The position numbers and the translations under genes are program-made. Below are positions 1 through 10,082 of a stretch of 10,082 bases of DNA, in pieces. The stretch covers positions 1 through 10,082 of the forward strand of contig DMNR01000176.1 in the NCBI GenBank assembly GCA_003452655.1. The letters run 5' to 3'. The stretch is from Actinomycetota bacterium. Lineage in GTDB: Bacteria; Actinomycetota; Actinomycetes; S36-B12; UBA10799. Position 1 is the stretch's first letter; every line of letters begins with the position of its first letter. Under the pieces are notes generated by a model. It did not search any database. It worked only from the letters and a program-made list of their open reading frames with translations, and was not told the origin of the DNA.

Positions 1-767
1 AGGGCGCGCCCGAGTCCGAGCATCGATCCGCCGATGATTCCGCCGCGGCCGAAGGGCAAGACGACGGTGCGGATCATTCCCCAGCGGGTCGATCCCAGCG
101 CGAGCGCGGCTTCCTTCTCGCCAGGAGGAGCCTGCGAGAAGACCTCGCGCATGACTGAGGTTGTCACCGGCAACACCATGAGTGCGACGACGACGCCCGC
201 CATGAACGACGACTGCGTGAACTGCTCACCCTCGACAGCGAAGATCGGAATCCAGCCGAAGAAGCTGGAGATCCACTCCGCGAGTGGCACCAGCTTCTCC
301 TGCAGGAAGAACAGTCCCCAAAGTCCGTAGATCAAACTCGGAATTGCAGCGAGGAGATCAACCAGCGACGTCAGTGGCTTACGCAATCGCATCGGTGCGT
401 ATTCGGTCAGCGCCAAGGCGGCAAGGATGCTCATTGGAACCGCGATCAGCATTGCGATGAACGCGATAACGATCGTCCAGTAGAGGACCGCAGCAATGCC
501 AAAGACGGGCGGGTTCTGCTCGGGATGCCAGGCAGTGTTGGTCAGAAAGCCGAAACCCTGAGAGCTCAGGGCTGGCCATGCGCGGATCAGCAGGAACGTG
601 CCGATCAGCACAAGCAGGACGAGCGTGATGATCCCTGCGCCGCTGGCCGTCCCGCGGTAGAACCGGTCGGGCTTCGTGTAGCTGGAGCCAATCACCCGTG
701 GGGTATCGGAGTCGCTCGCCTCCTGACCTGCAGGTGGGCGATCTCGCAGATCCAACCCATCGGACAT
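1..767 (-). CDS. pstC: Phosphate ABC transporter permease PstC (3' end outside window)
   Basis: This is one of the two membrane permeases of the high-affinity Pst phosphate importer, which works with PstA, the ATPase PstB and a PstS binding protein. The visible 255 residues begin with a cytoplasmic tail of about 42 residues, then a membrane helix (44-63) and further helices near 92-120, 131-155 and 186-203. The PstC signature IPSLIYGLWG lies at 142-151. The ABC permease coupling (EAA) loop starts at E217-E219 (EKEAALALGSTRW) and continues to the window edge with the usual GRGGIIGGSMLGLGRA. Family members are usually 300-340 residues, so roughly 50-80 residues are off the left edge. The ATG at 765-767 has a clear AAGGAG ribosome site a few bases upstream. 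pstA and pstB would be expected beyond position 1. No pstS precedes it on the same strand, which is the normal order; the PstS-like genes lie on the opposite strand. Confidence 0.95.
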   Translation of the reverse strand, partial: MSDGLDLRDRPPAGQEASDSDTPRVIGSSYTKPDRFYRGTASGAGIITLVLLVLIGTFLLIRAWPALSSQGFGFLTNTAWHPEQNPPVFGIAAVLYWTIVIAFIAMLIAVPMSILAALALTEYAPMRLRKPLTSLVDLLAAIPSLIYGLWGLFFLQEKLVPLAEWISSFFGWIPIFAVEGEQFTQSSFMAGVVVALMVLPVTTSVMREVFSQAPPGEKEAALALGSTRWGMIRTVVLPFGRGGIIGGSMLGLGRA

Positions 768-851
768 GGTGCTTCTCCTTGTTGCGCACCACCGTCACGG
801 CACGCCTCGACTGCTGACCGCCGAAGCATCACCCGACAAAAGAAACCTTTG

Positions 852-891
852 GTTATGCAATAGACAAACGCAGCTACACGAGTTGGTGAAC
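852..891 (-). promoter_or_regulatory. Candidate PHO box and -10 for pstC
   Basis: On the minus strand the sequence GTTCACCAACT (891 down to 881) matches the GTTCACC core of the actinobacterial PhoP direct-repeat unit. It is followed at about 22-base phase by GTTTGTC (869 down to 863) and then by a -10-like CATAAC (857 down to 852). This places a possible activator site where a -35 would sit, about 120 bases upstream of the pstC start. The match is to a remembered consensus and only one unit is good, so this is a candidate only. Confidence 0.35.
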
Positions 892-929
892 AGCAAAAGT
901 TGTCCACGCTCAAGGGTTGACCCGACCGG

Positions 930-2813
930 GTGTCGCGGGTGAACGTCATCGACGTGAATGCACTAAAGGCGCCGAATGCTAGGACTAAAGCCGGAGTTGC
1001 CTGCCTCGTAGTTGCCCTGTTGGCCGTCTTGACCGCAGGTCTGTCGTTGACGTCGGCTGCGGTCGCCCGGGCATCCGGCACGCCCACCGTTGCTGTCGAT
1101 CCAGGCGCCGGACTCGTTGACGGTCAGATCCTGACGGTGGCCTGGAGTGGGTTCACGCCGGGTGCGAGTGTGATCCTTCGGCAGTGCGCGAAGGCACCTA
1201 AGAGCGCGACCGAATGTTCCAAGCTGCTGCAAAGCGAACCCACGGATTCAGATGGTGCGGGTAATGCGACCTTCACTGTCGTTGCGACAAACGGTGGTGA
1301 CCGCCGACTAACGGGAGCACCCAAGGTCACGTGTGACTTCACGACGAGCTGCGAGCTCTTCGTTCTTCCTGATGAATCCCCCGATGCGTTGAATACCGGC
1401 GCCGCAGCAGGGCTTTCGTTTGCCAAGCCGGCCACTGCCTGCCCGACGCCGGGTCCACAGGCATTCGGCGCCGAAGGAACCGATGCGGCCGCGCGAGCGA
1501 TCACTGCTTGGCAGCCGATTCTGTGCGACAAGCCAACGCTGACCGCAGTGGACTTCGTACCGAAGAACGATCCGAGCGGTCGGCAAGACTTTTTGTGCGG
1601 GCTGCGCGATGTCGCAATCACCCAGTCCGGAGCGGTCGCTGGTGAAACGTGTAACGGCAGCGGCGAAGGTCGGGCTGATCCGGTGGTCGCACCGATTTCG
1701 GCTTCTGCCCTTGGGTTCGTATACAACCTGCGTGATCAGCGGACCGGCAAGCGGATCTTGGACCTTAAGCTGTCGCCTGCGTTGTTGGCGCAGATCTTTA
1801 CCGGCCAGATTCTGCGCTGGAACGATCCACGTATCGCGGCGCTCAACCCGGGTTACACCCTGCCGACAAAACTGCGAGTGGTCGGTCGAGCCGATGCCAG
1901 TGAACTCAACAAGCAACTGACGACCTTTTTCTGGACCCGCGCCAAAGCGGCCTACGAAAACGGCGGCCCGGCGTTTGCCGACGGACCCACCGATACCTTC
2001 CCGTCGATCGCCGCTGTCGATCTGCGGACTGGTGGTCCAGCAGTGGGCTCAGCGGTGGCGGCCCCGGCCGAGAATGATCCTCGCGACGACGCGTCGTACG
2101 GCTACATCGGAGTGCTTGATACGAGCGCTGCGGCATTCTGGGGACTTCCGTCGGTCGCGGTCCAGTCGGCCGACGAGACCCGGTTTGTTGCCCCAACGCC
2201 TGAAGCCGTGAGCAAAGGCGTTGCCGCGTTGAAGGACAGCGCGGCAACGGGTGCAGCAGTGTTGTCGACGGCAGATCCGGCGGCCTATCCGCTGCCCGTC
2301 ATCACCAGTGCGCTGCTGCCCACCGACAAGGCGACCGCAGATCAGGTGGAGGCAATCCGGCGATTTGTGAACTACGCGGTTGGGGCCGGTCAAGATCCAG
2401 CCGTGCTGCCGCGCGGATACGTGCCGCTGCCCGCGGAGCTGGTGGCCAAGTCAACTGCTGCCGCGAAGACGCTTACTGCCGCTCCGAAGAAGTCCGCGAC
2501 GACAACGCCCCCCAAGGCCGATGCCTCGACACCTCCCTTGTCCGCTGCTGCCAGCACGGTTGGGTCCGCGGGATCGGCATCAGGGGTTTCCGGGAGTCCT
2601 GCAGGAGGGCTAGATGCCAGCGGTGCAGCACCGGGGACGGCTGCCGTTGCAGCGGGCCAACCGAACGTCGTCACGAGTGTCTTTGCCCGTACCGGCCTCA
2701 CAGGCGCGGGCGCCTCACCACTTGTGTTGCCGGCGCTGTTGGCGCTGGCGTTAGTGGCCGGATTCGTCGGTCAGCGGCTGTTGCGATCACCGGAAGATTC
2801 AGGAACCTCATGA
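930..2813 (+). CDS. Surface-anchored neocarzinostatin/PstS-like fusion with FARTG sorting-like tail
   Basis: This is a predicted exported 627-residue protein. Residues 1-49 form a signal peptide (hydrophobic 22-45, cut near ARA-SG). Residues 52-165 resemble neocarzinostatin-type domains (GLVDGQ, SGFTPGA, RQCA) with two cysteine pairs, C86/C96 and C135/C141, at the family spacing. Residues about 176-515 follow PstS: LSPALLAQIFTGQILRWNDP (281-300), AALNPG, and the end segment VITSALLP...LPRGYVPLP. A Ala/Thr/Pro/Ser stalk (about 515-580) leads to FARTG (585-589), a hydrophobic helix (597-614) and a basic tail (QRLLRS), the layout of a sortase substrate. Phosphate-contact positions look changed: the RxDGSGT loop reads RADASEL (320-326). 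The start is uncertain: GTG 930 has AAGGG about 13 bases upstream, and GTG 939 or 954 are also possible. The gene is coupled by a 4-base overlap to the sortase homologue. True phosphate binding is doubtful. Confidence 0.85.
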   Translation: MSRVNVIDVNALKAPNARTKAGVACLVVALLAVLTAGLSLTSAAVARASGTPTVAVDPGAGLVDGQILTVAWSGFTPGASVILRQCAKAPKSATECSKLLQSEPTDSDGAGNATFTVVATNGGDRRLTGAPKVTCDFTTSCELFVLPDESPDALNTGAAAGLSFAKPATACPTPGPQAFGAEGTDAAARAITAWQPILCDKPTLTAVDFVPKNDPSGRQDFLCGLRDVAITQSGAVAGETCNGSGEGRADPVVAPISASALGFVYNLRDQRTGKRILDLKLSPALLAQIFTGQILRWNDPRIAALNPGYTLPTKLRVVGRADASELNKQLTTFFWTRAKAAYENGGPAFADGPTDTFPSIAAVDLRTGGPAVGSAVAAPAENDPRDDASYGYIGVLDTSAAAFWGLPSVAVQSADETRFVAPTPEAVSKGVAALKDSAATGAAVLSTADPAAYPLPVITSALLPTDKATADQVEAIRRFVNYAVGAGQDPAVLPRGYVPLPAELVAKSTAAAKTLTAAPKKSATTTPPKADASTPPLSAAASTVGSAGSASGVSGSPAGGLDASGAAPGTAAVAAGQPNVVTSVFARTGLTGAGASPLVLPALLALALVAGFVGQRLLRSPEDSGTS

Positions 2814-3748
2814 TGAAGAAGTTGTCCTCGTCCGCCGCCACCGCCGTTCGCTGGGTGAATGAATCGATCCGCGCCCTCGTCGCCGCGATACATCGTTGGT
2901 TCACTCGCACACCACCGGGCAAGCGAATGGGTGTGCTCGGTGCGGCCATTGCAGTAGCAGCGGTCGTCGGGTTCTTGGTCGCCGAAACTGCGGTTGGCGC
3001 GATCTTGCAGACACGTTCGCAAACGATGCTCGCCAACGAGTTCTCCGGCACCCTTTCGAAGGCGGCGGGCGCCTCAGGGTCGAGCGATTTGTCTCCGCTG
3101 CCCGTTGATCCCCCGAAGACGGGCGAGGCGGTGGCCATCATCAAGATCCCGTCGATCGGCCTTGAACAGGTTGTCGTTGAAGGTCAGGACACCGAGTCGC
3201 TGCAACACGGGCCGGGACACGTGCCCGGAACGTCCCTGCCCGGCCAGCCCGGCAACGCAGCGGTCGTCGGTCGGCGCACCACCTTTGGTGCTCCGTTTCG
3301 CAACCTCAGCGCCCTTGCGGCAGGCGAGGAGATCAACGTGACGACCGTTGAAGGTTCTGCCACATACAAAGTCACCGATGTTAGTTGGCGGTCGAAGGGC
3401 ATGTTCGAACCTGCGAAGGAGTCCACATTGACGCTGGTCACTTCAGGTCCGCGTTTGCTGGCAACACAGGATCTGGTCGCCCGCGCCCAACTGGTCGGAC
3501 TGCCATTGCCACCAACTCCGCAAAATCCACGCACCTACGAGAGCCCGCGCTCCGGTGATACGGGAATGTGGGCGCAGGTTCTCGTGTGGTTCGTGATCAT
3601 CGCGCTGGTTGCCGCGGCCGCGTTCTACACGTTGAGGCGGCGCTGGGTTCCACCGACAGTCGTGTGGATCTTGAGTGCGCCGGTGGTTCTTGCGAGCCTG
3701 GTGTTAGCGCTTCGGGCCCTCGATACATTTCTGCCCGCAACTCTGTGA
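2810..3748 (+). CDS. Catalytically degenerate sortase-family membrane protein (pseudo-sortase)
   Basis: The central domain (about 104-231) is a clear class E/F-like sortase: AVAIIKIPSIGLEQVVVEG, HGPGHVPGT, LPGQPGNAAVVG, RTTFGAPFRNL and TLVTS...LVARAQLV. Sortases join surface proteins to the cell wall using His, Cys and Arg. Here GHRTT is GRRTT (Arg155, codon CGG at 3272-3274), TLxTC is TLVTS (Ser212, TCA at 3443-3445), and the Arg that follows nine residues after the Cys is Asp221 (GAT at 3470-3472). Transpeptidation therefore looks impossible. Topology: cytoplasmic basic tail 1-39, helix 41-66, extracytoplasmic domain, then two C-terminal helices (254-274 and 283-302) separated by LRRRW. The ORF is intact, arguing against simple decay. 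The start could be ATG 2810 or, with better spacing from AGGA at 2801-2804, ATG 2813. The overlap with the preceding gene implies joint translation and a shared role. Confidence 0.92.
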   Translation: MMKKLSSSAATAVRWVNESIRALVAAIHRWFTRTPPGKRMGVLGAAIAVAAVVGFLVAETAVGAILQTRSQTMLANEFSGTLSKAAGASGSSDLSPLPVDPPKTGEAVAIIKIPSIGLEQVVVEGQDTESLQHGPGHVPGTSLPGQPGNAAVVGRRTTFGAPFRNLSALAAGEEINVTTVEGSATYKVTDVSWRSKGMFEPAKESTLTLVTSGPRLLATQDLVARAQLVGLPLPPTPQNPRTYESPRSGDTGMWAQVLVWFVIIALVAAAAFYTLRRRWVPPTVVWILSAPVVLASLVLALRALDTFLPATL

Positions 3749-3761
3749 CGTCCGTTTGGGC

Positions 3762-3799
3762 TAGTGCGTCGCCAATCGTTAACCGACGGTTCGCACTAC
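3762..3799 (+). promoter_or_regulatory. Inverted repeat overlapping PHO-box-like direct repeats upstream of second PstS-like gene
   Basis: A perfect 7-base inverted repeat, TAGTGCG (3762-3768) and CGCACTA (3792-3798), encloses a 23-base spacer. Within and across it lie two adjacent 11-base units, GTTAACCGACG (3778-3788) and GTTCGCACTAC (3789-3799), in the phase expected for PhoP direct repeats (GTTCACC-type). This sits about 95-130 bases before the GTG of the next gene and just after the pseudo-sortase stop. It could be an operator giving the next gene its own promoter, or a weak hairpin. There is no T-tract. Confidence 0.35.
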
Positions 3800-3891
3800 G
3801 CACCTTTAGTCCTTGCCCGCAGGTCTCTTTGCACTGATTTCGTGCATCACGTCGGACGGATCGTTCGATTTAGATTGAGAGGGGCACACAC

Positions 3892-5652
3892 GTGCAGGAA
3901 ACACGAAGTAGAGGCATCCGCCTCTGTGCAGCGGCGGGGGCATTGGCCGTTGCAGCTGTGGCACTTGCGACACCAGCGATGGCAAGTCCGGCAGTTGATG
4001 GCAAGGCCACCACGCTGGTCGGCTCAGGTTCGGACACGACGCATGCCGTCATGCAGCGACTCGATGCCGTCTACTCCGGGGCCCCCGGCTGCGTGGTGTT
4101 GGCACCGACGGGTACACCACAACCGCTGACCGGGGATTGCTACTCCGATACTCCTGTCGGCACCATTCCGGTTAACCCAGACCACGATGGGGTCGCCCAG
4201 AGCTACCCCCTTGGGTCGGGAACTGGAATCAACCAACTCTGCCAGCAGGGATTAGCGAACGTAGCGAGCATTGATTTTGCCCGCTCCTCGCGAGGCCCGA
4301 AGACTGGTGACTGTGATGGTCTGCAATTCACCGCGTTTGCGCGCGATGGAATTTCGTGGCATCACTTCACCAAAGTGGGCGGAGCGAACACCCCGTCGAA
4401 TGCGGTCACGAATCTGACGCAGGATCAACTGCGCAAGATCTTCGTGACCGGTGAGATCAACAACTGGTCGCAGGTTGGTGGCACGAGTGCCCCGATCGTT
4501 GTGTATGCGGCCCAGGCGGGGTCAGGCACCCGGACGACATTCGACGGGTTTGTCGGCGGTAGCTCAAGCAGCCAGATCCCAGCCGGGAATCAGGCGACTC
4601 GAGTCATCACCGAGAACAATGCACAACAGATCGTGGACAACGGCGAAGCTGCCAACGCGATCTTCTACGAATCGTACGGCCGCTACCAGCAGGCAACTCC
4701 GGGCAACTCAACCGGAACTGCAGGTGCAGCGGATTCACTCGGAAGCATCGATGGGATCGCTGTCACTTCGACAACGGTTGGTGATTCGACGTTCCCGTTC
4801 GGCCGCAGCCTGTACAACGTCTTGCGGTACCCCTCTGAGGCAACCAAGCGTTACCTCGATCCTGTCGACGGGTTCCTTTGCCGGACCGACATCGACAACG
4901 TGGTGAGCTCGATTACCGGTCGCAAATTGCGCTCGGAAATCAACTCAGCCATCGCTGCCGAGGGATTCGTTCCGCTGGCCAAGGGCACGGTAGGTGGCGG
5001 CCGCACCGGTCAGAGCTACTGCCGGTTGTCGATGCCCAAGCCCGACGTGACCTCAGCCTCGGTTGGGTTCACGGTTAACGCAACCGACTACGCCAGCTCA
5101 AGCGTGCGGGTCACCTTCTCCGAGCAGGTCGTGGGTGTCAGCGGCTCGTCGTTGGCCATCACTACCAGCGGTGGAGCACCAGTCGCTTCATCCGTGAGCT
5201 GCATCAACGCAGCAGGAGCTTCGGTTGCGTGTGGATCAGGTCCCGTTCTGATCGCTGATGTCTCGAACAGTGCAGCGTTGGCTCCTGGCACTAGCTATCG
5301 GGTGAACGCAAGCGACGCAATCACGGACCGTGCCGGCAACCCCATCGCTGGTTCGTCTTCAGCAGATTGGGTCGCAACAGGAGTTGTGCCAACCAACGTC
5401 AAGCGGGCGCAGATCCTGGGTGTTGGCTTGGTGAAGTCGCTCAAGGTTAAGAGGTCAGCTGTCCTGCCAGGTAGTTCTAACCAAGGTGTTGGCGTCAGCT
5501 GGCGCAGCACAACCTCGTCGGTCTGCAAGGTGAAGGGCAACCGAGTTGTCGCAGGTAAGAAGAAGGGCACCTGCAAGCTCGTTGCGTCCGCACCTGAAAC
5601 CGCAGAGGTATTCGGAGCAGCAGCGACCTTCAAGATCAAGGTCAAGCGCTAG
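3892..5652 (+). CDS. Secreted PstS-like substrate-binding protein with Ig-like and Lys-rich C-terminal domains
   Basis: This is a 586-residue exported protein with a Sec signal peptide (1-32, cut near AMA-SP). Its periplasmic-binding-protein domain (about 38-380) carries loops typical of PstS-like proteins: GSGSDTT (44-50), GSGTGINQL (108-116), ASIDFARSSR (125-134), LTQDQLRKIFVTGEINNW (175-192) and AGSGTRTTF (209-217). Unlike its upstream neighbour it keeps an SGT loop. Residues 385-497 look like a bacterial Ig-like (Big_5/SbsA-type) domain (VRVTFSEQV, LAPGTSYRVNASDAITDRAGNPI). Residues 505-586 form a beta-rich basic domain (KGNRVVAGKKKGTCKLVASA) seen at the ends of actinobacterial surface proteins. 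There is no lipobox and no membrane anchor, so it may be released or held to the wall by the C-terminal domains. The GTG start has GAGAGGGG (3877-3884) seven bases upstream. Phosphate is the likely ligand from context, but this is inferred. Confidence 0.88.
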   Translation: MQETRSRGIRLCAAAGALAVAAVALATPAMASPAVDGKATTLVGSGSDTTHAVMQRLDAVYSGAPGCVVLAPTGTPQPLTGDCYSDTPVGTIPVNPDHDGVAQSYPLGSGTGINQLCQQGLANVASIDFARSSRGPKTGDCDGLQFTAFARDGISWHHFTKVGGANTPSNAVTNLTQDQLRKIFVTGEINNWSQVGGTSAPIVVYAAQAGSGTRTTFDGFVGGSSSSQIPAGNQATRVITENNAQQIVDNGEAANAIFYESYGRYQQATPGNSTGTAGAADSLGSIDGIAVTSTTVGDSTFPFGRSLYNVLRYPSEATKRYLDPVDGFLCRTDIDNVVSSITGRKLRSEINSAIAAEGFVPLAKGTVGGGRTGQSYCRLSMPKPDVTSASVGFTVNATDYASSSVRVTFSEQVVGVSGSSLAITTSGGAPVASSVSCINAAGASVACGSGPVLIADVSNSAALAPGTSYRVNASDAITDRAGNPIAGSSSADWVATGVVPTNVKRAQILGVGLVKSLKVKRSAVLPGSSNQGVGVSWRSTTSSVCKVKGNRVVAGKKKGTCKLVASAPETAEVFGAAATFKIKVKR

Positions 5653-5664
5653 TCCGAGATAGAT

Positions 5665-5714
5665 CTTGACGGGTGGTCCTGGTCGGCTGTTCTCCACCAG
5701 GGCTGCCCGTCAAG
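5665..5714. terminator. Bidirectional hairpin terminator between convergent genes
   Basis: CTTGACGGG (5665-5673) pairs perfectly with CCCGTCAAG (5706-5714), and an inner stem CCTGGT (5678-5683) pairs with ACCAGG (5696-5701). The hairpin lies between the stop of the PstS-like gene and the end of the converging EEP gene. Neither side has a long T-tract, so its strength is uncertain, but its position fits a shared transcription end. Confidence 0.7.
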
Positions 5715-5734
5715 CCTTTGCCGCTGTCGGTCGG

Positions 5735-6751
5735 CTACTGACCGGGGATTGTCACGATCGAGCGAATCGGATTGTGATCAGAAACGAACGGCGTGCGGTA
5801 CAGCTTGACCTTCTTCACCTTGGATCCCACGCGCTTCTTCTTAACGACTATCCGAACCATCGTCTCGGCGTACTGAACACCGATGCTTCCGCTGACGTAG
5901 ATCTGGTCCGGCCGGTAGCCGCCCTTGGGTGGATTCCGGGCAAGTCGGTTGAAGCTATTGAAGTTTGCATTGGCTCGGGCCGTGGCGCGATCAAATACCT
6001 CACCGAACCCATTTGCCTGCAGGACTTGCCGAGGTGCGTCGTACACGTACTTGGCACCACGGTTGGAGTTCATGTCACCGCCGATGATCACTGGCAGGGC
6101 GGATTTGTTGATCTCAGCGATCCGGATCGCCATCTTGCGTGCTTGCACGCTGCGCCAGTCGCTCGCCGCGCGTCCGTCACCGTTCGCCAGGTGCACGCTC
6201 ACGAATAGGAAGTGAGCACCAGAAGAGCGGTGATAGAAATCTTGGTACAGCGCGAATCGTTGAGGTCCCGATGGTGTCGGCAGGGGGACTGTGCCTTGAG
6301 TTTGGCCCGCGTAGAGGCTGTCGGGTCGGTAGAAGATCAGGCCACCGGTCATGTTGATCCCGCGCGCGTCTCCGAGCAGTGAGTACGTGTAGGTGGGGCG
6401 CAGGCGCGCAGTGAGTTGGTCACGCATGGCGGTGTCCGCCTCTTGAATTCCGACGACCTCGAATGCCCCCCGGCGGATCTCGGCAGCGATCCGATCCAGG
6501 CGACCGCGGCTGTTCCCGAGGCTGGAACTTCCGTTGTGAACGTTGAAGGTGCCAACCATCATCGATGTACTTGATGAACGTGGTTGGGGCGCCGGTGTTG
6601 TCGCTTCTGCGCTGTGGACCCCGGCGATTCCAGTGGCGACGACCAATGTTGCCGACGTCATCAGTGCGCAGGCAGCAACCATCCTGCGTCGGGCAGGCGC
6701 TGCCGTCGACGCGTTGCCCGCAGGCTGCAGGTCGTGGTTGCGATTGCTCAT
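5735..6751 (-). CDS. Secreted endonuclease/exonuclease/phosphatase (EEP) family enzyme
   Basis: This is a 338-residue exported metal-dependent phosphoesterase of the DNase I/exonuclease III/sphingomyelinase fold. The N-region (1-23) ends in RRR, followed by a hydrophobic stretch (24-45) and a site near HSAEA; the length and arginines allow a Tat signal, although the motif is imperfect. All EEP signatures are visible: GTFNVHN with Asn70, GIQEAD with Glu104, SVHLAN with His187, GGDMNSN with Asp226 and Asn228, PDQIYV with Asp282, and VSDHNP with Asp325 and His326. An active enzyme is therefore expected. Substrate (DNA, RNA, phospholipid or another phosphodiester) cannot be told from sequence. 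A Lys-rich hairpin insertion (303-317) precedes the last motif. The ATG has GGAG (minus-strand complement of 6757-6760) five bases upstream. It lies beside the phosphate genes, so extracellular phosphate release is an attractive but inferred role; I saw no convincing PHO box upstream. Confidence 0.93.
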   Translation of the reverse strand: MSNRNHDLQPAGNASTAAPARRRMVAACALMTSATLVVATGIAGVHSAEATTPAPQPRSSSTSMMVGTFNVHNGSSSLGNSRGRLDRIAAEIRRGAFEVVGIQEADTAMRDQLTARLRPTYTYSLLGDARGINMTGGLIFYRPDSLYAGQTQGTVPLPTPSGPQRFALYQDFYHRSSGAHFLFVSVHLANGDGRAASDWRSVQARKMAIRIAEINKSALPVIIGGDMNSNRGAKYVYDAPRQVLQANGFGEVFDRATARANANFNSFNRLARNPPKGGYRPDQIYVSGSIGVQYAETMVRIVVKKKRVGSKVKKVKLYRTPFVSDHNPIRSIVTIPGQ

Positions 6752-6938
6752 GCCAACTCCGGAGGAAGGGGCGTCCTAGTTCGAGTATCGGTGCAATTTC
6801 AGGAATGCTTGAAGATGAAACCCAGATGGGCTACTCGTATCAAAGCACCACAGCTCTGATGAAGCACCTGCTCTCGCAGGGGTCAGTCACGCAGCGGAAT
6901 CACCCCACTTCTTTAGGCCAGGGGGCGCTGCGCCAGCT

Positions 6939-6956
6939 CGCTGTCCCGAGACAGCG
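6939..6956. repeat. Second hairpin next to the HU terminator
   Basis: CGCTGTC (6939-6945) and GACAGCG (6950-6956) form a perfect 7-base stem with a CCGA tetraloop. It overlaps the foot of the HU terminator by two bases, so the two stems would compete or stack in the minus-strand transcript. It lies within a 256-base gap that has no other gene-like feature. Confidence 0.6.
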
Positions 6957-6994
6957 AAAGACCCCGGCGAGATAATCTCTACCGGGGTCTTTCG
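6955..6994 (-). terminator. Rho-independent-type terminator of the HU gene
   Basis: CGAAAGACCCCGG (6955-6967) and CCGGGGTCTTTCG (6982-6994) form a perfect 13-base stem, 13 bases past the HU stop codon. The 14-base loop contains a further small GAGA/TCTC stem. On the minus strand the stem ends in TCTTTCG, a short T-run. It can also fold on the plus strand. Confidence 0.85.
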
Positions 6995-7007
6995 GTGCTT
7001 GTGAGGA

Positions 7008-7283
7008 CTACTTGTTGACGGTGTCCTTCAATGCGGTTGCTGGCTTGAATGCAGCGGCGGTGCGTGCCTTGATTTCGACAGGCTCACCGGTCTGCGGGTT
7101 GCGGCCAGTGCGGGCGGGACGATCCGAAAGTGCGAACGTTCCGAAACCGGACAGGGCAACCTTGCGGTCCTTCTTCAGACCTTCGACGATCGACTCGGTA
7201 ACGGCGCTGAGTGCAGCAGAAGCTTCCTTCGTCGAGACGTCAAGCTTTTCGGCAATCGAGGCCACGAGCTCAGAGTGAATCAT
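7008..7283 (-). CDS. HU-family DNA-binding protein
   Basis: This is a 91-residue histone-like nucleoid protein that binds and bends DNA as a dimer in the cytoplasm. The N-terminal helical dimer part (1-42, SELVASIAEKLDVSTKEASAAL) is followed by the core GFGTF (46-50) and the DNA-binding beta arm with RPARTGRNPQTGEPVEI (55-71), including the proline (Pro63) that inserts between base pairs. The length equals that of the short HU form; the long Lys/Ala-rich C-terminal tail of mycobacterial HupB is absent. The ATG has AGGG (7290-7293, minus strand) six bases upstream. It is a single-gene unit, with a strong terminator downstream and a 154-base gap before the preceding MFS gene. Confidence 0.97.
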   Translation of the reverse strand: MIHSELVASIAEKLDVSTKEASAALSAVTESIVEGLKKDRKVALSGFGTFALSDRPARTGRNPQTGEPVEIKARTAAAFKPATALKDTVNK

Positions 7284-7437
7284 TGGTATCCCTACTCATA
7301 GACAGTAACTATGCGGTTAGAACGTAACAGCGACCCCGCCACCGTCCGGCGAATGGCCCCCTCGTTTCGCGTAGATCCTTGGTTTTGTTGGGTTCCGGGG
7401 TCTGGGCGGGTCTCGGCCCAAAGCGCGACCTTCGTGC

Positions 7438-8649
7438 TCAGCCGAGCCGTCGGCCGACGGCAAGTAGACCAACGGCGGCGAGGGCGGACACGATTCCGGC
7501 GATCATCATTGGGGTGGTTCCCAGCCCACTGCCAGAGGTCCAGGCGAGCCCGGCCCAGACGCCGGCGAGCAAGATCGCGCCACCGGTTAGACCCTGCATC
7601 AAACCCTGGGCATGACCCCGCTGTTCGGGCGGGCACAGGCTCGAGATCCAGGCCTTCCCAACTCCATCGGTTATTCCCGCGAATCCTCCGTAGACCAAGA
7701 GCAGCAGGACCGAGACCCATCCGGTGTCGGCGATGGCGAGACCGATGTAGCCGATCGCGAAGCAGATCAATCCGAGCGCATACACGCGTGCTCGCGGCCA
7801 GCGGTCAGATAGCGCGCCTGCGGGGAACGCAATCGCCGCGTTTGCCAGGTTGAACAGTGCGTAGGTGGCGACTACCGACATGGTCGAGAAGCCTTGTTCG
7901 TTGAGGTGAAGCAGCAGCAACGCGTCGGGGAAGTTCACCAGAGCGATGACTGCAAGAAGGCCCGCGATAAGGCGTACTCGTGGTGGCAGCGGTGGTGCTT
8001 TGGGTCGCGCAGTGGTGGTCAATTGCTCGGAGTTGGCGGGCCCGGCGGGAGGCTGCAGTTTGGGTCGACGCTTCTCGACCGCGAGTGGAACGAGCGCGAC
8101 GCTGATTAGCGCGGGAATCACAGCAACCCAGAGCGCGACCTGGATGTTTCCCGAAGCGGCAGCGAGTACAGCTAGACCGACCAGCGGCCCAATTACGGCA
8201 CCCAATGTGTCGGCCGCTCGGTGGAAGCCGAAGACCTTGCCCATTGAGGTTGTGGCGACACCATCGGCCAGCAGCGCATCGCGGGGTGCTCCCCGGATCC
8301 CCTTGCCGACGCGGTCAACGACGCGCCCGGCCAGCACACCCGGCCAGACGGTCGCCGCCGCGATGATGATCTTCCCTACGGCTGCAAGTCCGTAGCCGGT
8401 TGCGACGGCCGGCTTGCGTCCAACCCGATCAGAAGTTCGGCCGGAGATGTACTTGATCAACGCCGCCACACCCTCGGCGATGCCTTCCACGATTCCCACC
8501 ACGGCCGCAGGTGCGCCGAGAGTTGTTGTCAGCAGAATTGGCAGCAAGGGGTAGAGCATCTCGCTAGCCGCGTCCTGCGCGAGTGAAACCGCGGACAGGA
8601 CCTTGACGTTGCGAGTCAGCCAGGGTTTGGCCTCGGAGGCTTCGCTCAC
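7438..8649 (-). CDS. Major facilitator superfamily transporter, probable exporter
   Basis: This 403-residue inner-membrane protein has the usual twelve-helix layout: six helices before and six after a cytoplasmic loop at about 190-224 that is rich in Pro, Lys and Arg. MFS motif A is present between helices 2 and 3 (GRTSDRVGRKP, 70-80), with a second copy in the C-terminal half (GALSDRWPRAR, 278-288). The segment GRVVDRVGKGIRGAPRDALLAD (108-129 region) and the opening LAQDAASEMLYPLLP are characteristic of one bacterial subgroup of exporters with unassigned substrates. The GTG start has AGG about eight bases upstream and lies 22 bases after the stop of the upstream membrane-protein gene, so the two are probably co-transcribed. 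A weak 5-base hairpin (7403-7420) follows the stop without a T-tract. The substrate is unknown. Confidence 0.92.
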   Translation of the reverse strand: MSEASEAKPWLTRNVKVLSAVSLAQDAASEMLYPLLPILLTTTLGAPAAVVGIVEGIAEGVAALIKYISGRTSDRVGRKPAVATGYGLAAVGKIIIAAATVWPGVLAGRVVDRVGKGIRGAPRDALLADGVATTSMGKVFGFHRAADTLGAVIGPLVGLAVLAAASGNIQVALWVAVIPALISVALVPLAVEKRRPKLQPPAGPANSEQLTTTARPKAPPLPPRVRLIAGLLAVIALVNFPDALLLLHLNEQGFSTMSVVATYALFNLANAAIAFPAGALSDRWPRARVYALGLICFAIGYIGLAIADTGWVSVLLLLVYGGFAGITDGVGKAWISSLCPPEQRGHAQGLMQGLTGGAILLAGVWAGLAWTSGSGLGTTPMMIAGIVSALAAVGLLAVGRRLG

Positions 8650-8671
8650 GCGGGCAGCCTATGCGTTCAGG

Positions 8672-9343
8672 TCAAAGGGTGCCGAGGGCTTGGGTCAGCA
8701 CGATGTAGATCATGCATAGGGAGAAGAGCGCCTGAGTGAGCATCCATAACTTCGCCCAGTGACGCAGCGGCGAGACATCGGCGGGACCCAAGGCCATGGC
8801 CGTGTAGAAGGACAGCGCCAGGTAGTCAACGAATTGGGGATACCAGAACTCACCTTCCGGTTGTTCGCGGTCTTGTTCAGGGAACGCAAACGAAGGCCGT
8901 ACCGCGGTGCTGCCTTGGGCACGGGCAGCCGGTCCCCCGCAGTCTAAATACCAGTACCAAAGCCCGAAAGTGATGTTGATGGTGAACCACAGAACGACGG
9001 CAACACGAAGCAGTTCGAGCGCGACGATGGCTTCAGGGTCGCCGAGGACGACCAAGATCACTCGAAGCGCCGTGGCGAGTGCAACTAGTGTGATGACGGC
9101 GATCAATATCCCGGACAGCACGCGAGCCCAACGCCGCTCATGGTCGAGGCCTCTGGGATCTGCAATAACCAAGATGAGGAGCAATACGAGGATCAGCGCC
9201 GGGTAGAGCAGGTGGCCGACTTCGGTGACCTGATAGACGGTTGGCATTAGGAGGTTCATCGCGGCTACGGCAATGACTGCGATCGCCATTGGAAGGCGGG
9301 ATTCACCCACCCGTGGTGCACCGTGACCCTCACGTCGCAGCAC
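8672..9343 (-). CDS. Membrane protein with ion-channel-like pore segment
   Basis: This 223-residue membrane protein is of unassigned function. Helices fall at about 19-35, 45-62, 75-101, 107-133 and 195-221. Before the last helix the segment FVDYLALSFYTAMALGPADV (172-191) resembles the pore helix and filter region of two-helix potassium channels, but the TxGYG filter is missing (MALGPAD instead). Similar hypothetical actinobacterial proteins carry LSFTTATAFSPTDTMPL at this place. I place the start at GTG 9341-9343 because GGGAG (9352-9356, minus strand) lies eight bases upstream; an in-frame GTG at 9350-9352 would overlap that site and add three residues. It probably forms an operon with the MFS gene downstream. 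Ion conduction is speculation. Confidence 0.8.
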   Translation of the reverse strand: MLRREGHGAPRVGESRLPMAIAVIAVAAMNLLMPTVYQVTEVGHLLYPALILVLLLILVIADPRGLDHERRWARVLSGILIAVITLVALATALRVILVVLGDPEAIVALELLRVAVVLWFTINITFGLWYWYLDCGGPAARAQGSTAVRPSFAFPEQDREQPEGEFWYPQFVDYLALSFYTAMALGPADVSPLRHWAKLWMLTQALFSLCMIYIVLTQALGTL

Positions 9344-9351
9344 TACGCACA

Positions 9352-9356
9352 CTCCC
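9352..9356 (-). promoter_or_regulatory. Ribosome binding site that decides the start of the channel-like gene
   Basis: GGGAG on the minus strand is followed by eight bases and then GTG at 9343-9341. The longer reading frame starts with a GTG that shares a base with this site, so the shorter start is favoured. Confidence 0.6.
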
Positions 9357-9469
9357 GATCTGACCCTGTATACCTGTGCGAATCATGCCGCATGCCGAAC
9401 ATGAATTAGCGGAATCACGGATCTAGTCCGACCGCGTAGATGCAGCGGTGCGCTGGGGTGGCGGCGCTC

Positions 9470-9997
9470 TCAGTGCGGTTTGAGGAGTAACTGAAGACAA
9501 ATCACCACAAAGCCGATGAGGAAGCCTGCCAGCGCCGCGCCGATCAACCTCCATCCCCGATAGCCCGACCGTCGGCCGGCGATCCAGCCCCAGAATCCAA
9601 GCGAAATGACTCCGAAATACAACATGATGATGATCGACGTCGCAATTGATGCTTTGAATAGGCCGATGAGCACGAAGAACACGGCAAGGGGAGGGAGGCC
9701 GACGAGAAGAAACTGAGCAGACTGGCCGCCCATGTGGCGCCAGTCCATGGCCGATGGCGCATGGCCCGCGCGAATTTGGAATTCCAGTACCTCGGCAAAT
9801 AGGTGGGCAAGCACTAGTGCCAGCATCGGCCCCACAACCACCAGTACGACGCCGAATACGCGAGACAGATCCGTCCAGCCCTCAAAGACGGCGAGCACCG
9901 ACATCAAGGTCACAGTTCCGTAGACCCAGATTCGAACGTTGATCGTCATCGGTCCCATGCGGATCGGACGAACCGTCGTGCCTTGCTCAGTAGCCAT
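9470..9997 (-). CDS. Small five-helix integral membrane protein, unknown function
   Basis: This 175-residue membrane protein has hydrophobic helices near 24-38, 46-66, 93-113, 118-140 and 148-172. It opens with WVYGTVTLMSVLA and has a conserved-looking LVLAHLFAEVLEFQ (61-74) and GRRSGYRGWRLIGAAL (141-156). I recall similar unnamed actinobacterial membrane proteins with YGT...LAHxYA and a C-terminal GxRGxRL segment, but no function. I chose ATG 9995-9997 over a TTG at 10022-10024 that would add nine residues, because the extra residues include a Cys-Cys-Trp run unlike an N-terminus and have no ribosome site. The ATG itself has only a weak GCTGG upstream. It is separated from the channel-like gene by 126 bases with no clear terminator, so co-transcription is uncertain. 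Confidence 0.75.
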   Translation of the reverse strand: MATEQGTTVRPIRMGPMTINVRIWVYGTVTLMSVLAVFEGWTDLSRVFGVVLVVVGPMLALVLAHLFAEVLEFQIRAGHAPSAMDWRHMGGQSAQFLLVGLPPLAVFFVLIGLFKASIATSIIIMLYFGVISLGFWGWIAGRRSGYRGWRLIGAALAGFLIGFVVICLQLLLKPH

Positions 9998-10082
9998 CCA
10001 GCAACAGTATTCGACGCCCAGCAACCACGTTGGCCCGACGAACAGCTTAACGTCAGCGTCCGGCCGACCCTCAAGATCAAAA

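Follow-up and report, generated by a model that had tools for sequence, protein, structure and literature searches.

Sortases are usually treated as enzymes. In the class E sortase SrtE1, two residues, Tyr229 in the beta3/beta4 loop and Arg329, make contact with the backbone of the substrate (excerpted text of PMC5148588). The SCO3737/SCO3738 pair, as far as the excerpted text of PMC5882110 describes it, joins a divergent sortase to a co-transcribed membrane protein proposed as its substrate, the function of the sortase being putative. We describe here a sortase homolog without catalytic residues, the dead sortase, encoded in a 10,082-nucleotide stretch of Actinomycetota DNA (contig DMNR01000176.1 of assembly GCA_003452655.1, positions 1 to 10,082) that we call the window. 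A preliminary description of the window, made from its letters alone, had singled out this gene. Comparison across genomes shows the dead sortase to be a conserved part of a second, putative Pst-type (phosphate-specific transport) system in the Actinomycetota.

A sortase fold without the catalytic residues

By homology the dead sortase belongs to the sortase superfamily. PF04203 (Pfam Sortase) matches it with an E value of 1.1e-21 and 77.2 bits against a cut-off of 26.6, TIGR01076 (NCBIfam 'sortase') matches at 45.0 bits against a cut-off of 39.35, and the predicted model retains the sortase beta-barrel fold, which the preliminary description had proposed to check. Its claims of an intact reading frame and of a protein without cysteine both stand: the frame is open from ATG to stop over 312 amino acids, and a count on the sequence letters gives 0 cysteines. 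Alignment to active relatives likewise bears out the claim that all three catalytic residues are replaced, with Arg155, Ser212 and Asp221 aligning on the catalytic His, Cys and Arg (Table 1). R215 is the counterpart of the Arg found three residues after the Cys in active class E enzymes ('C.PR'), not of the catalytic Arg. Judged by this alignment, the protein is probably not an active sortase.

Table 1. Features of the window that bear on the dead sortase.
Feature	Coordinates	Strand	Description or basis
Dead sortase (pseudo-sortase)	2810..3748	+	312 aa; N-terminal helix region, sortase domain, two C-terminal helices
Sortase domain, residues 104-231	3119..3502	+	Profile match, predicted model, alignment
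Arg155 (codon CGG) in catalytic His position	3272..3274	+	Alignment to active relatives
Ser212 (codon TCA) in catalytic Cys position	3443..3445	+	Alignment to active relatives
Asp221 (codon GAT) in catalytic Arg position	3470..3472	+	Alignment to active relatives
Two predicted C-terminal helices, residues 253-307	3566..3730	+	Model, hydropathy scan
PARTNER	930..2813	+	Neocarzinostatin-type domain, PstS-fold domain, low-confidence linker, C-terminal transmembrane helix
PBP2	3892..5652	+	PstS-like; signal peptide, no lipobox (simple pattern), no C-terminal transmembrane helix, immunoglobulin (Ig)-like domain (Big_5)
pstC-like permease gene	3..767	-	Divergent; truncated by contig end

One clade under purifying selection

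The homolog search gave 129 proteins, and 45 rows chosen from 120 of them form alignment A1. For the tree we combined homologs with open reading frames (ORFs) of fetched loci. The domain was sufficiently complete in 225 rows, of which 216 were distinct, and thinning at 85% identity left 165, the window copies L001 and L004 being excluded. The tree was built by a quick method on 125 columns, with the three trait columns removed, and many of its forks are unresolved. On this tree 97 rows (92 with Arg155 and five others) lie on one side of a branch with a Shimodaira-Hasegawa-like approximate likelihood ratio test (SH-aLRT) value of 89, and all 64 rows with His and Cys fall outside this dead clade. 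Four further rows outside it (P0031, P0094, P0121 and L024) were omitted from the counts; P0094 and P0121 carry Cys in the first alignment, so their reading reflects an alignment shift.

Within the dead clade, position 155 is R in 92 rows, K in 3 and H in 2; position 212 is S in 78, A in 12, T in 4, G in 2 and V in 1; and position 221 is A in 61, D in 8, L in 6, R in 6 and something else in 16. The substitutions are thus common to one clade (Cys in 0/97, R or K at 155 in 95/97, R at 221 in 6/97), and none of the nearest homologs has intact His, Cys and Arg, the case that the preliminary description had named as counter-evidence. His137 is invariant (97/97). Val138 of the window protein sits, by motif alignment, at the position of the class E Tyr, which is present in none of the 97 dead rows and 41 of the 64 active rows, although the pattern used in the genome scan included the letters HV and so biases position 138 towards V. 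Two clade members, P0069 and P0087, retain His and Arg with Ala in place of Cys and possibly represent an early branch of the loss; because of them, there are hints that Cys was lost first, before His and Arg.

The two C-terminal helices that the preliminary description remarked upon are indeed predicted, but they are not distinctive. A hydropathy scan found two in 94 of 97 dead rows and one in the other 3, and two in 29 and one in 6 of 60 active rows, after 4 of the 64 active rows had been dropped, their domain end not being located. With about half of the active relatives having two, we rejected the helix pair as a special trait of dead sortases.

Selection was estimated from the ratio of nonsynonymous to synonymous substitution rates (dN/dS), which the preliminary description expected to lie below 1. 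Against L034, which is 92% identical, dN/dS is 0.04 for the whole gene (dS 1.1) and 0.008 for the domain, where a single residue differs over 128 codons (dS 0.86); the comparison with L035 gives 0.17, at a dS of 2.8 that is near saturation. Eight Amycolatopsis genes, compared in 28 pairs, give 0.10-0.40. With catalytic residues lost and purifying selection kept, the clade is, by sequence comparison, one of pseudoenzymes. Low dN/dS also contradicts the idea that this is a decaying gene retained by chance, which the loss of all three residues might suggest but which we consider wholly improbable, as distant families of the phylum carry the gene with the same neighbors.

Carriers include cultured Amycolatopsis species, so the role of the protein is open to test in culture. 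Because members of the clade are recorded as 'class E sortase', 'sortase A' and the like, actinobacterial sortase counts may be inflated. Four loci are titled Bifidobacterium breve, Acidobacteria or Thermoanaerobacterales (L091, L103, L058 and L079); their tree neighbors are actinobacterial, and they may be mislabeled or misbinned contigs of metagenome-assembled genomes.

Association with Pst-type genes

The dead sortase is accompanied by genes for three PstS-like proteins, which we call PARTNER, PBP1 and PBP2, and by pst genes. Our scan of named genomes took the best 80 of 121 related stretches, which hold 81 sortase genes: 36 dead ones and 45 that carry His and Cys. With seeds all taken from dead loci (the Pst proteins themselves being general), PARTNER, PBP2 or pst genes were detected within the stretch fetched around 34 of the 36 dead genes and 0 of the 45 active ones (Fisher p 8e-21). 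When a single Amycolatopsis is kept the figure is 20 of 22 dead genes (p 4e-15), with kinship among the other genomes uncorrected. pstB is near 20/36 dead and 0/45 active genes, and pstC or pstA near 21/36 and 0/45; the weak pstB matches beside active sortases are at the level of unrelated ATP-binding cassette (ABC) ATPases. The two dead genes without any marker are L070, where the gene is at the contig start, and L041, from Herbihabitans.

Among stretches of at least 14 kilobases (kb), pst genes are found in 19 of 24 dead loci and 0 of 23 active ones, the five dead loci without them being L065, L080, L083, L069 and L041. For L065 and L080 (first stretches of 14 kb or more) and L038 (first stretch of 10.4 kb) the 8 kb flank had cut the locus short, and wider stretches give an upstream pstC-pstA-pstB-PBP1-PBP2. 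The genomes of L083 and L098 have pst genes on other contigs (L170 and L171) that end in or just past PBP1, a join that is conjectural.

Co-occurrence was scored in 99 related genomes, a dead sortase being at least 137 bits to A1 and PARTNER at least 107 bits to A2, an alignment of the 29 genes that immediately precede dead sortases. Dead sortases are present in 21 genomes, the next A1 score (95 bits) belonging to a His-bearing gene. The PARTNER mark is present in 23 genomes, including all 21, and the remaining 76 have neither; since PBP1 proteins reach 126 bits to A2, a mark at the low end means PARTNER or PBP1. Both extra genomes (G043 and G047) have their match close to a contig end. The G047 contig edge has a short fragment that seems to resemble the N-terminal part of a dead sortase.

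In an independent draw of 296 genomes across the phylum, the best 30 loci were classified, giving at least 9 dead loci in 296 genomes (the window included) and 21 loci with His. For eight of the 9 dead loci, a PARTNER match, a PBP match or a strong pst match lies no more than about 1.5 kb away, and the ninth (L141, at a contig edge) has PARTNER, PBP1, pstA and pstC in the wider stretch L167. The 21 His loci have no PARTNER, and their pstB matches reach only 1e-12 to 1e-14; 19 have His and Cys in one ORF, L147 is split over two ORFs and L161 reads H-T-R. Dead sortases with the same neighbors thus occur in distant families of Actinomycetota. Several relatives (G011, G016, G027, G035 and G055) have canonical pst genes on another contig too.

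Operon organization and upstream regions

We fetched 16 regions, 14 with a dead sortase and two as canonical pst comparisons (L123 and L124). In 10 of the 14, pstC, pstA, pstB, PBP1, PARTNER, dead sortase and PBP2 are found together, counting PBP1 of L115 from a separate scan, pstC of L117 from L172 and several PBP1 labels that are based on weak matches and on position. Of the others, L121 and L127 run into contig ends, L125 has no pstC label and L126 no sortase label (its sortase is L017). Two orders prevail: a divergent one, with pstC-pstA-pstB-PBP1 one way and PARTNER-sortase-PBP2 the opposite way, with which the window agrees as far as its contig goes, and a one-strand order, pstB-pstC-pstA-PBP1-PARTNER-sortase-PBP2. 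The sortase precedes pstB in L117/L172 and PARTNER in L168. With pstC in the window, pstA and pstB in relatives, and PstS-like proteins, the operon is by gene content of Pst type, phosphate transport being putative.

The genes for PARTNER and the dead sortase are coupled. In the window the PARTNER stop and the sortase start share four bases (2810-2813, ATGA), a gap of -4 recurs in many loci among the matches listed, and in 28 of the 36 named dead genes a start codon overlapping TGA lies no more than 180 nucleotides from where the ORF begins, with the upstream frame unchecked.

The PHO box consists of two 11-nucleotide direct repeats (excerpted text of PMC7866108). We scored 13 intergenic regions on 14 letters, with shuffles as the control. 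For the letters of the unit we used what we take to be its consensus, and all scores depend on that assumption. Repeats matching 13 of 14 letters occur in L114 (10235-10445), L120 (3800-3869) and L129 (5499-5701) and a 12-letter match in L059 (5675-5745), with 0 of 300 shuffles as high in each case; L118, L127, L047, L039 and L048 score 11, which 0.02-0.04 of shuffles equal. There is no such signal in the window, L122, L044 or L061 (9 of 14 letters). The double repeats of L114, L120, L129 and L059 fall between pstC and PARTNER.

Neighboring proteins

The PARTNER model (predicted local distance difference test, pLDDT, 80; predicted template modeling score, pTM, 0.72) resembles PstS-1 (1pc3, template modeling score 0.80 by target) and PhoX (5i84, 0.85), and part of it is of neocarzinostatin type (2mcm); residues 524-596 form a low-confidence linker that is followed by the C-terminal helix. 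Apart from the absence of LPXTG, this order of signal, domain, linker, transmembrane helix and short tail matches that of a sortase substrate. Of the 29 genes in A2, the TIGR00975 PstS model matches 17 and an enediyne chromoprotein model 11. PBP_like_2 matches PBP2 of the window at 1e-15 and the four PBP1 proteins scanned at 9e-25 to 2e-37. Simple patterns find a C-terminal hydrophobic helix in 11/12 PARTNER, 11/13 PBP1 and 0/15 PBP2 proteins, and a lipobox in 0/13 PBP1 and 3/15 PBP2 proteins, of which that of L064 is convincing and those of L039 and L120 are doubtful; the two canonical PstS proteins compared each have one. In the window, PBP2 has no lipobox match and PARTNER only a weak one, out of place in the signal helix.

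Pattern matching detected no LAXTG-type sorting signal in the PARTNER tail of the window. A sorting motif was also rejected more generally: a loose 5-mer pattern, applied to the final 90 residues, is present in 9 of 80 PARTNER-profile matches and is not constant. The pattern [ST][VIL]F occurs in 10 of 44 PARTNER tails (shuffled mean 1.1, maximum 5 in 500 shuffles) and a more permissive four-letter pattern in 17 of the 44 (mean 5.6, maximum 12 in 200 shuffles); both were picked post hoc, the 44 rows include at least one long ORF (L077) whose end is the sortase itself, and we regard the candidate juxtamembrane motif as a lead only. By clade, again post hoc, the motifs are SVFA/SIFA in the window and its kin, PEF in the Microthrix group and IPLF/IPKF in Amycolatopsis.

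In one family, represented by four loci (L115 16953-18938, L116 2740-4653, L119 4241-6094 and L128 1502-3448), PBP2 is followed by a secreted protein of 617-661 amino acids; the L115 copy has an Ig-like Big_3_5 domain. Adjoining the operon in the window, 5735-6751 (-) encodes an exported-looking member of the endonuclease/exonuclease/phosphatase family (Exo_endo_phos, 1.5e-13) that could release phosphate. Beyond it are an HU-type DNA-binding protein (7008-7283, -), a major facilitator superfamily transporter (7438-8649, -) and a weak DUF1345 match below cut-off (8672-9352, -).

Possible functions

Because the operon combines a Pst-type importer with three PstS-like proteins, we tie the role of the dead sortase to that system. 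We put at about 0.55 the probability that it is a non-catalytic, membrane-embedded docking subunit of the second Pst-type importer, holding PstS-like proteins. Its extracytoplasmic sortase domain would bind, without cutting, the linker or juxtamembrane tail of transmembrane-anchored PstS-like proteins, the first target being the coupled PARTNER, whose anatomy resembles that of a sortase substrate without LPXTG. The binding proteins would thereby stay assembled at the permease, replacing the lipid anchor of ordinary Gram-positive PstS, and a frozen sortase-substrate pair would have become a structural part of an importer. We infer this clamping of PARTNER and PBP1 tails from the coupling of genes, the resemblance of PARTNER to a sortase substrate and the groove motifs that the dead sortase retains; tail binding, complex formation and a phosphate role are all proposed from sequence and models. 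A fuller version, which we hold only tentatively, is that a sortase frozen in its substrate-bound state clamps the transmembrane-anchored binding proteins and, with the free binding protein and the permease, makes up a multi-receptor phosphate-capture complex, phylum-wide and without lipoprotein anchoring.

Several observations weigh against the docking role. Both SrtE1 contact positions are changed in the dead sortase (V138 and D221), so peptide binding in the groove need not follow the original mode, and no juxtamembrane motif is common to all of the 44 PARTNER tails. PARTNER and PBP2 seeds came from dead loci, so detection there was favored. L041 pairs a dead sortase with only a weak PARTNER match, and the one pstB of its genome that exceeds the family cut-off is on contig C1. 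Genomes without a dead sortase may also have a second pstB that scores similarly, so the pstB score class is not a mark of this system. In the window genome, whose assembly is 70.7% complete and whose contig ends in pstC, we saw neither pstA and pstB of this system nor PBP1, and a search of it with one PBP1 returned canonical PstS and PARTNER only.

The dead sortase and PARTNER might instead sense phosphate or the state of the wall and relay it, or be competitors of the cell's active sortases. A membrane topology with a helix hairpin, the PHO-box-like repeats between genes in some relatives (on our assumed unit) and two further sortase-family matches in the window genome would suit such a sensor or competitor. 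However, no signaling gene is constant among the neighbors in stretches labeled by seed similarity or Pfam scan, and competition leaves the tie to PstS-like and pst genes unexplained; we think this role unlikely. Slightly less probable still is an anion site, in which a pocket around the conserved Arg or Lys155 (95/97) binds phosphate or an anionic wall polymer and joins ligand transfer to the permease. An operon of phosphate type would fit this, but the Arg could equally contact a partner protein, through its backbone or an acidic side chain, and phosphate-type binding folds are already supplied by the three PstS-like proteins. An enzyme still active through Ser212 as nucleophile, with Arg155 standing in for His, is very improbable: Ser is the commonest residue at 212 (78/97), but we rejected it as a nucleophile because Ala, Thr, Gly or Val replaces it in 19/97 rows, His155 is absent in 95/97, Arg is at the catalytic Arg position in 6/97, and the members with Ala, Gly or Val (L014, L019-L023) share the same gene context.

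If the tie to Pst is true, the dead sortase would give a non-catalytic role for the sortase fold, would show how binding proteins can be held without a lipid anchor and would offer a natural trapped enzyme-substrate pair for structural work. If docking by a clamp is also true, the sortase fold would be a structural subunit of a transporter.

Comparison with known systems

A search of one open literature collection (titles and starts of abstracts), with other literature outside its scope, found neither a dead sortase family nor a Pst-linked sortase among the papers listed, in keeping with the preliminary description, which knew of no described family of this kind. The class E sortases (SrtE1 of Streptomyces coelicolor, 5cuw; S. 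avermitilis, 5go5; Thermobifida fusca, 9iok) have the Cys, His and catalytic Arg that the dead sortase lacks. The NF033747 class E model gives it 87.8 bits against a cut-off of 160, it has V138 where most active rows have Tyr, and it lies in a Pst operon whereas active relatives have other neighbors. By its NCBIfam score, the replaced Tyr and the lack of a LAXTG-type signal in the linked substrate, it falls outside class E on sequence features. As in SCO3737/SCO3738, a sortase-family gene adjoins the gene of a proposed membrane substrate; the Pst link and the loss of the triad set it apart, neither being told of that pair in the excerpted description to which we compared it.

The operon shares PstC, PstA, PstB and PstS-like binding proteins with canonical PstSCAB, but in place of a lipoprotein PstS it has three PstS-like proteins, two usually with a C-terminal transmembrane helix and one unanchored, together with the dead sortase. 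Like pseudoenzymes in general, the dead sortase has kept its fold and remained under selection while losing its catalytic residues; it represents a pseudoenzyme clade among the sortases, placed within a variant Pst operon.
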